A program made the position numbers and the translations under genes. The notes under the pieces were generated by a model, which did no database searches, was not told the DNA's origin, and saw only the letters and a list, made by a program, of their open reading frames with translations. Shown piece after piece: positions 6,258-55,755 of a stretch of DNA of 64,000 nt. This stretch comes from Glutamicibacter protophormiae (GTDB lineage Bacteria; Actinomycetota; Actinomycetes; Actinomycetales; Micrococcaceae): assembly GCF_014647495.1 (NCBI RefSeq), contig NZ_BMPH01000013.1:1-64000 (forward strand), read 5' to 3'. Positions within the stretch are counted from its first letter, which is position 1; every line of letters starts with the position of its first letter.

Positions 6258-7715
<1,458 letters not shown>

Positions 7716-48979: not shown

Positions 48980-49597
48980 ATGATCACCACCTCCCTTTTT
49001 CTCGGGTTCTCAACAGGACTGTCACTCATCGTCGCCATCGGGGCGCAGAATGCGTTCGTTCTACGACAGGGAATCCGTCGAGAACGCGTTCTGTTGACAG
49101 TGACCCTTTGCGCATTGTCAGATGTGGTGCTCATCTTCGCTGGGGTTACCGGCATAGGCATCGTTGTGGAGCAGGCTCCGTGGATCCTGACGATCGCCCG
49201 CATCGGGGGAGCGATCTTCCTGGTTTCCTATGCATTTTTTGCGTTGCGGCGCACGATCGCCCCGTCAGGCATGGAGTCATCGAGCACGCCATCGCCAACC
49301 ACTGCGTGGTCTATTGCAGGGACTGCACTCATGCTGACTTGGCTTAATCCCCATGTCTACATCGACACGGTACTCCTGCTTGGCTCCATCGGGGCATCCC
49401 AAGGAGAAGAATCCGGTGCATTTGCCGTAGGAGCGATGCTGGCCAGCGTGCTCTGGTTTAGCGCCCTTGGCTATGCGTCGCGTTTCCTGTCGCGATTCTT
49501 TGCTAAACCCACAGCCTGGCGAGTACTGGACGGGCTCATCTGCATCTTCATGCTGGCTTTCGCCATCATGCTCCTGGCGCCACTTTTCACCAGTTAA
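48980..49597 (+). CDS. lysE: LysE-family basic amino-acid exporter
   Basis: 205 residues, five to six helices, with GAQNAFVLRQGIRRE near the N-terminus and TWLNPHVYIDTVLLLG in the middle, both diagnostic for LysE. It exports lysine and arginine, protecting cells during growth on peptides; the POT transporter elsewhere in the window makes that role plausible. It is controlled by the divergent lysG. Its downstream side faces the DnaA-box array, with no obvious terminator. Confidence 0.94.
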   Translation: MITTSLFLGFSTGLSLIVAIGAQNAFVLRQGIRRERVLLTVTLCALSDVVLIFAGVTGIGIVVEQAPWILTIARIGGAIFLVSYAFFALRRTIAPSGMESSSTPSPTTAWSIAGTALMLTWLNPHVYIDTVLLLGSIGASQGEESGAFAVGAMLASVLWFSALGYASRFLSRFFAKPTAWRVLDGLICIFMLAFAIMLLAPLFTS

Positions 49598-49604
49598 CCT
49601 GCGG

Positions 49605-50057
49605 ATATCCACAGGTATCCACAGGTCTTGTGGATTACCTTCAACCACAACTTGTTCACAACTTTATCCACAGCTGGGGACAACTTGGGCATTAGTGGGC
49701 TTTTTGAATCAAAACGCCTTGTCAAAAGGTTTTTGTGCAACAAATTAGGTGTGTACAAAAGTTATTAACACTGTGGATCCTGCTTGTGGAAACATCACTT
49801 TTGGCGCATCCTGGGCGGGCGTTGCCCTCTTCGTTTAAAGATTCGAAGCGCTGGTTATTAACAGGTTTCCAGTTCGTAAATGCACTATCTACAGCCGTGT
49901 TTAAAAGTTATCCACAGCTGGGGAGAAAGGTGTGAGTATCTACTCTTCGGATGGCTTATTCCCTGAGAATGCGGTCATTCCGGGCTGTTAATAACTTTGC
50001 CGCCGCAGAGTTACATGGCTGTAAGTTATTAACAGTGTGGATAAGCAGTGTGGATAT
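49605..50057. other. DnaA-box cluster in a non-coding, AT-rich segment
   Basis: This ~480-base gap between lysE and the rhomboid gene has no convincing gene. Perfect TTATCCACA boxes: 49664-49672 (+), 49908-49916 (+), 50036-50044 (-). One-mismatch boxes: 49605-49613 (+), 49615-49623 (+), 49629-49637 (-), 49652-49660 (+), 49675-49683 (-), 50049-50057 (-). A two-mismatch box lies at 49772-49780 (-). The 17-mer TTATCCACAGCTGGGGA occurs twice (49664, 49908). The density implies DnaA binding; see findings. Confidence 0.85.
49761..50034. repeat. Four copies of GTTATTAACA within the DnaA-box cluster
   Basis: Exact copies at 49761-49770 (+), 49854-49863 (+), 49986-49995 (inverted) and 50025-50034 (+). 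In two of them the 10-mer is followed, one base later, by TGTGGAT (reverse DnaA-box core), at 49761-49778 and 50025-50042, forming a composite element. Confidence 0.9.
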
Positions 50058-50078
50058 CTTTGCTGACGTGTTTTCGAA

Positions 50079-50936
50079 TCAGGCCAGAGGCCATTTAGCG
50101 GCTTCGACTGCAAGATAGGTCAAAATCAACATTGCCGCACTCAATGCGCCCAGGAGTGAGAGCTGAATTTTCGAACGCTGTGGATTACTTCGAGGAATCA
50201 ACATGATGCAGGAAGCGGCGACTATGCCGGCCACGGCGCCGCCAAGATGGGCCTGCCATGAGATCCCGGAAACGACGAAGCCGAGGACGACGTTCAGCGC
50301 CAGAATGATCGCCATTTGGCGCAGCGCCTGCTTGTTGCCGCGCAGAACGACGAATGTGGCCAGGAAGAGTCCTGCCAAGGCACCCGAAGCTCCCAGCGTT
50401 GCCGTTGTGACCGGGCTCAGGAGCATGACTCCCAATGAGCCACCCAAGGCGCTGAGAAGGTAAAGCCAAGTAAATCGGAGCCTACCAAGTCGCGGTTCGA
50501 GAAGCGTGCCAAAAATATATACCCCGTACATGTTCATGAGGATGTGCAGGAACGATCCGGTGGAGTGCGCGAATGCACTGCTGATCAGGCGCCATGGCTC
50601 GTACGCTGCGATCGCCGGGATCAGCACCAATTCCCTCGTAAAGCCCGGAATAATCCACTGCAACAGATAGACGAACACATTCAATCCGATGAAAATCATC
50701 GTGACCAGGGGAGCACCAGCACGAGCGCGGCCTCCGAACTGCGTCTTCTGCGTCGGAACATTCTTATTCGCCTGCCTGACGCATTCAACACACTGAACAC
50801 CGACAGGAGCTGGAACTTGGCACTGCGGGCAGACAGGACGGCCGCAGCGGTTGCACGAGACATAAGAGACCGTCTCTGGATGCCGATAGCAGGTCGGCTG
50901 TGATTGACCTTGAGGATTCACTTGCCCGTAGGACAT
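50079..50936 (-). CDS. Rhomboid-family intramembrane serine protease with N-terminal zinc finger
   Basis: 285 residues. Residues ~15-55 hold a B-box-like zinc-binding pattern (CYRHPETVSYVSCNRCGRPVC, PQC, GVQCVEC). The rhomboid domain follows with HILMNMYGVYIFG, the catalytic Ser in LGASGALAGL and His in SWQAHLGGAVAG. It corresponds to the rhomboid gene found near ppiA in many actinobacteria. Transcribed away from the DnaA-box region, which abuts its 3' end. Confidence 0.94.
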   Translation of the reverse strand: MSYGQVNPQGQSQPTCYRHPETVSYVSCNRCGRPVCPQCQVPAPVGVQCVECVRQANKNVPTQKTQFGGRARAGAPLVTMIFIGLNVFVYLLQWIIPGFTRELVLIPAIAAYEPWRLISSAFAHSTGSFLHILMNMYGVYIFGTLLEPRLGRLRFTWLYLLSALGGSLGVMLLSPVTTATLGASGALAGLFLATFVVLRGNKQALRQMAIILALNVVLGFVVSGISWQAHLGGAVAGIVAASCIMLIPRSNPQRSKIQLSLLGALSAAMLILTYLAVEAAKWPLA

Positions 50937-55289: not shown

Positions 55290-55298
55290 CTTCTCGTG

Positions 55299-55371
55299 TG
55301 GAGCCTAGGAGATTCGAACTCCTGACATCCTGCTTGCAAAGCAGGCGCTCTACCAACTGAGCTAAGGCCCC
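55299..55371 (-). tRNA. tRNA-Ala (TGC), copy 2
   Basis: 73-nt cloverleaf, acceptor GGGGCCT / AGGCTCC with one G-U pair, discriminator A, anticodon loop TTTGCAA (TGC). No encoded CCA. Identical in sequence to the copy at 55451-55523. Confidence 0.97.
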
Positions 55372-55419
55372 CAATGGCAAGAAATAAATTTACCGGCCAG
55401 TGCGGGTTAAAGCAAAAAC

Positions 55420-55437
55420 GGAAAGCTTTCGCTTTCC
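55420..55437 (-). terminator. Terminator between the two tRNA-Ala genes
   Basis: 7-bp stem GGAAAGC / GCTTTCC with TTTC loop and a TTTTTGCTTT tail on the minus strand. The core matches the hairpin at 55262-55289, consistent with duplication of gene and terminator. Confidence 0.8.
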
Positions 55438-55450
55438 ATTTTCCCTTTTG

Positions 55451-55523
55451 TGGAGCCTAGGAGATTCGAACTCCTGACATCCTGCTTGCAAAGCAGGCGC
55501 TCTACCAACTGAGCTAAGGCCCC
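55451..55523 (-). tRNA. tRNA-Ala (TGC), copy 1
   Basis: Same 73-nt tRNA as at 55299-55371, with anticodon TGC and GGGGCCT/AGGCTCC acceptor stem. It begins 8 bases after the DLW-39 stop, so it is probably cut from the tRNA-Ile/DLW-39 transcript. Confidence 0.97.
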
Positions 55524-55530
55524 AAAAGCG

Positions 55531-55650
55531 TTAGGAAACTTTATCGGCTACCTGATGCCAGGTATCCTTGGTTTCCGAAGAAGCCTTTACCTTCTTGATC
55601 AGCACTGCGGCAGCAGTTGCGATCGTTGCGAGAACCAGGAACTTTTTCAT
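55531..55650 (-). CDS. DLW-39 family small protein
   Basis: 39 residues from an ATG with GAGGAAG upstream. It starts KKFLVLATIATAAAVLIKKVKA, a basic-flanked hydrophobic helix, and ends DTWHQVADKVS, the counterpart of the DLW-containing end of this family (here DTW). Length 39 is exactly the family's size. Located between tRNA-Ile and tRNA-Ala as in other actinobacteria. Function unknown. Confidence 0.9.
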   Translation of the reverse strand: MKKFLVLATIATAAAVLIKKVKASSETKDTWHQVADKVS

Positions 55651-55681
55651 TACTTCCTCTTTCCCTCCAGCAAGGATTCGG

Positions 55682-55755
55682 TGGGCGTACCAAGACTTGA
55701 ACTTGGGACCTCTTCGTTATCAGCGAAGCGCTCTAACCGCCTGAGCTATACGCCC
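55682..55755 (-). tRNA. tRNA-Ile (GAT)
   Basis: 74-nt cloverleaf: acceptor GGGCGTA / TACGCCC, anticodon loop CTGATAA (GAT), T arm with GTTCAAGT, discriminator A. No encoded CCA. The following 31 bases lead straight to the DLW-39 ribosome-binding site without a terminator. Confidence 0.97.

Follow-up and report, generated by a model that had tools for sequence, protein, structure and literature searches.

The DnaA-box array and its surroundings

The stretch of Glutamicibacter DNA analysed here (the window, 64,000 nucleotides) has the gene order ppiA, rhomboid gene, DnaA-box array, lysE/LysR/SMR genes and crgA. The array, delimited by a box scan at positions 49605–50057, lies inside the gene-free gap between the convergent 3' ends of a lysE-type exporter gene (48980–49597, plus strand; Pfam LysE) and the rhomboid gene (50079–50936, minus strand; Pfam Rhomboid). 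The coordinates given in the original prediction are correct, and so is its description of the segment as AT-rich and free of genes, with a GC content of 44.7% compared with 64.0% for the whole window. Elsewhere in the window, two neighbouring tRNA-Ala genes and one tRNA-Ile gene are located at 55298–55755.

The interval 49598–50078 contains three perfect TTATCCACA boxes, the number originally claimed, 7 sites with at most one mismatch and 20 sites with at most two. Dinucleotide shuffling of this interval yields means of 0.01, 0.14 and 1.76, respectively, and none of the 300 shuffles matches any of the observed counts. The six one-mismatch boxes reported previously become four when counted strictly against TTATCCACA and 14 when counted against TTWTNCACA, so that the number changes but the overall picture is right. 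Across the 3.83 Mb genome, there are 16 perfect TTATCCACA sites (11 for the reversed motif), three of which are inside the array, and 306 sites with at most one mismatch (197 for the reversed motif); AGTTATTAACA occurs in exactly three copies in the genome, all three in the array.

Several boxes form recognizable arrangements. The lysE end of the array carries three one-mismatch boxes (49605–49637; starting at 49605 and 49615 on the plus strand and at 49629 on the minus strand). Two inverted pairs were delineated by the box scan and the genus alignment, namely a perfect box at 49664–49672 (plus strand) opposite TTGTCCCCA (minus strand; pair at 49664–49683) and a perfect box at 49908–49916 (plus strand) opposite TTCTCCCCA (minus strand; pair at 49908–49927). 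The box scan also detected degenerate boxes of the sequence TTATTAACA at 49855–49863 (plus strand) and 49986–49994 (minus strand). A one-mismatch box, TAATCCACA, is embedded in the coding end of the rhomboid gene (50179–50187, minus strand) and is found in the same place in 7 of the 8 named relatives.

A rigid module of boxes and a palindrome

The novel feature of the locus is a rigid module that consists of tandem DnaA boxes, an inverted third box and a palindrome; the array noted in the original prediction is real, but this repeated module and its palindrome were overlooked there. The two tandem boxes are 12–13 bp apart, the inverted third box follows 10–11 bp further, and the palindrome TYACA-N4-TGTRA starts about 20 bp past the second box, at an offset of 20 from one box and 33 from the other. 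Family-wide, tandem pairs are spaced by 13 bp (60 pairs) or 12 bp (27 pairs), and opposed pairs by 11 bp (38) or 10 bp (23). Among the 99 family modules, the inverted third box has an offset of 10 in 70 and of 11 in 16; in the order and class, 12 of the 17 modules have it at one of these two offsets.

Module 1 (50011–50057, minus strand) was recognized as an exact genome-wide pattern match (C13:50011–50040) and as the invariant run in the genus alignment. Its box A, ATATCCACA (50049–50057, minus strand), is followed at a distance of 13 bp by box B, a perfect TTATCCACA (50036–50044, minus strand), both delineated by the box scan and the genus alignment, then by box C, an inverted TTATTAACA with one mismatch to TTWTNCACA (50026–50034, plus strand; box scan), and by the palindrome TTACAGCCATGTAA (50011–50024, minus strand; palindrome and pattern searches). 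Between box B and the palindrome, the inverted box of Glutamicibacter reads TGTTAATAA. Module 2 (49747–49793, minus strand; box scan and genus alignment) comprises GTTTCCACA (49785), GGATCCACA (49772) and an inverted TTATTAACA (49762–49770); its palindrome is decayed in this genome, whereas most of the aligned relatives have it intact.

The possibility that TTATTAACA within the array is an origin trio element was considered and dropped, given that its polarity is opposite to that at the origin; this reading is also contradicted by the presence of inverted boxes of the TGTGGAnAA type in the same place in other genera. On these two grounds, TTATTAACA in the array is best read as box C.

The palindrome is the predicted site of a second protein. 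FtsR was rejected as a candidate binder because its published motif, as presented in an excerpt of PMC6683498, differs from the palindrome. TYACA-N4-TGTRA palindromes also adjoin nrdR genes (Pfam NrdR) at about position 1501 of both L170 and L172; in L170, as in seven more matches of the same form, the palindrome follows a CCACAACATCTAGTAG-type sequence, the place of which is taken by CCACATGTGGATGAC in L172 and L173. The palindrome-binding protein may act at ribonucleotide reductase genes too.

Conservation in the family, order and class

In the eight loci of the nearest named relatives (Glutamicibacter species and Arthrobacter strains), the boxes are found at nearly identical places. Loss of the boxes next to retained flanking genes, which the original prediction named as the outcome that would speak against it, is not seen in the Glutamicibacter group, where the sites are kept in all 11 aligned sequences. 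The longest invariant run in this alignment is TTATCCACACTGTTAATAACTTA. Invariant columns account for 91 of the 125 site columns compared with 52 of the 365 other columns, a footprint that leans towards conservation since the site columns were chosen where at least 6 of the 11 rows have the motif.

Conservation extends across the Micrococcaceae. A rhomboid gene is detected at an E value of 1e-30 in 139 of the 149 family genomes, and a significant excess of boxes over shuffles past this gene is observed in 58 of the 60 family loci, 16 of the 20 order loci and 9 of the 17 class loci (the latter number leaves out three of 20 loci that have no rhomboid hit). The mean box score in the family is 9.85, compared with 0.30 for shuffled sequences and 0.78 for the reversed motif. 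The two failing family loci and the weakest passing one all belong to genus g26. Ten family genomes lack a strong rhomboid hit; the nine of these that were checked (all but G067) all contain box clusters, which adjoin either crgA or a rhomboid hit of lesser strength and were judged by score without shuffles.

When up to one mismatch is allowed, the palindrome occurs in 70 of the 74 family loci, 13 of the 20 order loci and 11 of the 25 class loci, against shuffle predictions of 4.4, 0.4 and 0.5, respectively. Because the palindrome was first noticed in the same data, the composite module was tested separately. In a scan of 120 loci on both strands, 2.3 Mb in all, 116 modules were found near the locus, defined as no more than 2.2 kb from rhomboid, crgA or ppiA; three were located elsewhere, and none occurred in the reversed sequence. 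The module is found in 83 of the 120 loci, including 68 of the 75 from the family (73 genomes, two of which contributed two stretches each), 10 of the 20 from the order and 5 of the 25 from the class; it is absent at the locus in the other 10 order loci and 20 class loci. The seven family loci without a nearby module are L042, L062, L063, L143, L144, L145 and L148, and L143 and L144 each have one module about 8.4 kb from crgA.

The exact module pattern was also used for an unbiased search of whole genomes. In the family, there are 102 matches in 80 of the 149 genomes, compared with 2 for the reversed pattern, and 79 of the 102 matches, spread over 63 genomes, are no farther than 3 kb from the locus. 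In the class, 58 matches were found in 55 of the 393 genomes, compared with 3 for the reversed pattern, and among the 30 class loci listed, 23 adjoin ppiA, rhomboid or crgA. The flanking genes are convergent in 64 of the 66 loci with crgA within 3.5 kb.

Module copies away from the locus

In genus g26, all seven loci retain one module beside the rhomboid gene despite the decay of the array, and in 4 of the 7 genomes a second exact module is found 12–93 kb away, where 5 or 6 boxes are clustered. The genera g3, g15 and g16 likewise have exact modules at other places in their genomes. These observations suggest selection on the module as a whole; alternatively, the off-locus copies could be duplicates. 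In g3 (L192, L193 and L169), the module lies away from rhomboid within large box clusters, and in L169, it is located between two genes that, judged by eye, resemble those for superoxide dismutase and a MarR regulator. The remaining off-locus matches look like chance occurrences or another type of promoter.

Functional interpretation

The view of the array as a DnaA-binding regulator outside oriC, one of the readings in the original prediction, is well supported by the conservation in the family, by analogy with a mycobacterial DnaA site in the gap between Rv0010c and Rv0011c, and by the box clusters in the corresponding position of Streptomyces-like genomes; the other part of that prediction, a displaced or bipartite origin, is not supported, as discussed below. 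The retention of a fixed module in the same place across the family and in some distant actinobacteria indicates that the array is probably a switch that times the start of chromosome copying. As to how it might do so, we lean towards an origin-proximal DnaA-control element whose new copies would sequester DnaA and delay a second start. We infer that about three DnaA molecules occupy each module, with two arranged head-to-tail along the tandem boxes and a third opposite them, and that a dimer of the putative palindrome-binding protein would sit on TYACA-N4-TGTRA beside DnaA. Lying only about 13–17 kb from the dnaA–dnaN origin, the element would be doubled soon after each initiation, and its new copies would soak up DnaA such that a second initiation would be delayed. 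Convergent flanks in 64 of the 66 loci with a nearby crgA make a promoter role unnecessary.

The sign of the effect on DnaA could also be the opposite. Under a DARS-like mechanism, which seems possible but considerably less probable, ADP-DnaA assembled on the tandem and opposed boxes would release ADP and thereby regain activity, with the palindrome-binding protein in the role of IHF or Fis. The cores of Escherichia coli DARS1 and DARS2, as read from the K-12 sequence, have the layout > -12- > -14- <, and the module (> -12/13- > -10/11- <) shares this topology, with three boxes, two of them in tandem 12 bp apart and one opposed, and with a site for an accessory protein at a fixed distance. The match is nevertheless incomplete: the opposed box is at 10–11 in the module but at 14 in DARS, so that the spacings do not agree, the positions of DARS1 and DARS2 used here are assumed or inferred from a primer, and the DARS2 region holds many other box triples. 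Furthermore, DARS elements contain IHF and Fis sites rather than TYACA-N4-TGTRA and are far from oriC, whereas the array is near it, and we know of no DARS outside proteobacteria.

Evidence from mycobacteria bears on the same choice. Point mutants of the Rv0010c–Rv0011c site have longer cells, as dnaA mutants do, and the authors tie the long-cell trait to hypomorphic dnaA alleles, while leaving both titration and reactivation possible for the site (excerpt of PMC7738170). Long, hypomorph-like cells are more in keeping with a site that supports DnaA than with one that takes it away. In its most far-reaching form, which is likewise considerably less probable, the DARS-like reading would make the module an actinobacterial reactivating element, a complex of three DnaA molecules with one opposed box and a dedicated partner on the palindrome, which is retained next to the origin from Micrococcaceae to mycobacteria and accounts for the long-sought role of the Rv0010c–Rv0011c site. 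Sequestration is favoured by the large, high-affinity arrays and by the repressive box clusters reported in other Gram-positive bacteria, and it was ranked first, with the DARS-like mechanism second, after weighing the mycobacterial mutants, the DARS topology, the repressive clusters and titration in E. coli. Besides the mutants and the opposed third box, the absence of the module from half of the order loci, from 20 of the 25 class loci and from the Streptomyces-like loci counts against this first choice.

A role in chromosome architecture or segregation, in which a DnaA-bridged anchor near the origin would work with the parS cluster, appears unlikely. Eight parS-like sites, six of them exact TGTTTCACGTGAAACA, are indeed present at C13 70024–76975, 20–27 kb from the array and beyond dnaA, but parS sites are usual near origins.

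A second or displaced replication origin at the array is slightly less plausible still. The gene for DnaA was identified beyond the window (NCBIfam DnaA); its start is about 16 kb from the array and dnaN is about 13 kb away, as originally estimated. In the two genomes tested, the raw cumulative GC skew reaches its minimum at the array (+16,608 and +16,735 from the dnaA start), and across 41 family loci, the array has more boxes than the dnaA–dnaN gap (8.0 within 1000 bp compared with 5.1 within 650 bp; 3.6 compared with 1.9 perfect boxes). However, the genes switch strand at the raw skew minimum, and after correction for the coding strand, the break can be placed anywhere at about 2–17 kb, with a chi-square excess of 4.8 and 4.5 for the dnaA–dnaN gap and 1.2 and 2.9 for the array; at four-fold sites, no arm effect was seen in a larger genome set.

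The dnaA–dnaN gap itself has the makings of an origin. Just past the window, it holds one perfect box among a total of four with no more than one mismatch, and among the 41 loci, TTATCCACA is present in 38 and TTATTAACA in 34. The usual layout is two abutting boxes, a short spacer and then TTATTAACA; in 28 of the 34 gaps, the AT-richest 50 bp begin no more than 24 bp from TTATTAACA. This layout resembles the published basal unwinding layout (excerpt of PMC8287927) and the Kocuria origin (excerpt of PMC12500396), and for this reason the gap is taken as the origin. The lowest 50-bp GC content is 0.39 at the array compared with 0.33 at the origin (lower at the origin in 27 of the 41 loci), and the polarity of the TTATTAACA-like element, consistent in 27 of 27 cases at the array and in 14 of 15 at the origin, is opposite between the two. 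Both regions contain tandem boxes followed by a GTTAWTAAC element; unlike the array, the origin has abutting boxes, a GC spacer and a forward TTATTAACA beside the AT-rich stretch, and no palindrome was seen in the dnaA–dnaN gap sequences inspected. Two other box clusters were observed, one in the rpmH–dnaA gap (five one-mismatch boxes, contig C13 66402–66581) and one upstream of dnaB (ten boxes with at most one mismatch, two of them perfect; contig C5, about 7249–7586, L003:2850–3187). The dnaB-upstream cluster corresponds to a dnaB-upstream DnaA site reported for mycobacteria.

DnaA is a transcription factor, and that role could be invoked for control of lysE, rhomboid or crgA. Such control is very improbable, and a promoter role was rejected, given that the array faces gene ends rather than starts in 64 of 66 loci and that, in the excerpt of PMC7738170, expression of Rv0010c and Rv0011c is the same in dnaA mutants.

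To our knowledge, little is known of the control of DnaA in actinobacteria. A fixed module that can be traced by a pattern search provides a concrete target with defined bases for study; it predicts a second, palindrome-binding protein, links the mycobacterial DnaA site to one in soil bacteria, and offers a test between opposite roles, sequestering or reactivating DnaA.

Comparison with known systems

The Rv0010c–Rv0011c site of Mycobacterium tuberculosis occupies the same gap as the array, on the crgA side of ppiA (we take Rv0011c to be crgA), and, as here, consists of a cluster of box-like sequences. The two differ in that the mycobacterial site has one module compared with the 450-bp double array and lies upstream of Rv0010c, whereas the array is between convergent gene ends. 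Binding of DnaA was shown in vitro for the mycobacterial gap and in vivo for a homologous region, and the mutation hot spot is palindromic, made up of two box-like sequences (excerpt of PMC7738170). The loci L099 and L100, with the mycobacterial gene order, contain the full module at the 13/20 spacing. The label 'mycobacteria' is inferred from gene order, and 'Streptomyces' from gene order together with chaplins; two of the seven Streptomyces-like genomes were tested for chaplin genes, which support the latter label.

In all seven Streptomyces-like loci, the rhomboid–crgA gap contains three perfect boxes, and in none of the seven did the composite scan detect the module or the palindrome. The cluster in S. 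coelicolor (Smulczyk-Krawczyszyn 2006) is near oriC, and its likeness to the array is one of position and boxes only. According to reviews, box clusters near oriC repress untimely initiation in S. coelicolor and Bacillus subtilis (excerpts of PMC5742627 and PMC4585315). In the open-licence literature seen, no report links this locus to DnaA in Micrococcaceae or Streptomyces.

In E. coli, DnaA boxes are concentrated near oriC, where they are thought to serve titration (excerpt of PMC12371093). The datA locus has its essential boxes all in one direction, with an IHF site between boxes (excerpt of PMC5742627); the boxes of the module are not all in one direction, and the opposed third box is a feature of DARS and not of datA, which favours the DARS-like mechanism. 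The conserved accessory site TYACA-N4-TGTRA lies outside the boxes, unlike WATCAANNNNTTR, a contrast judged on this site alone. In its setting, the array resembles datA, an intergenic locus close to oriC that follows the 3' ends of the genes on either side and has an accessory-protein site (excerpt of PMC5742627): the array, too, lies past the 3' ends of the flanking genes, near the origin and beside an accessory palindrome.
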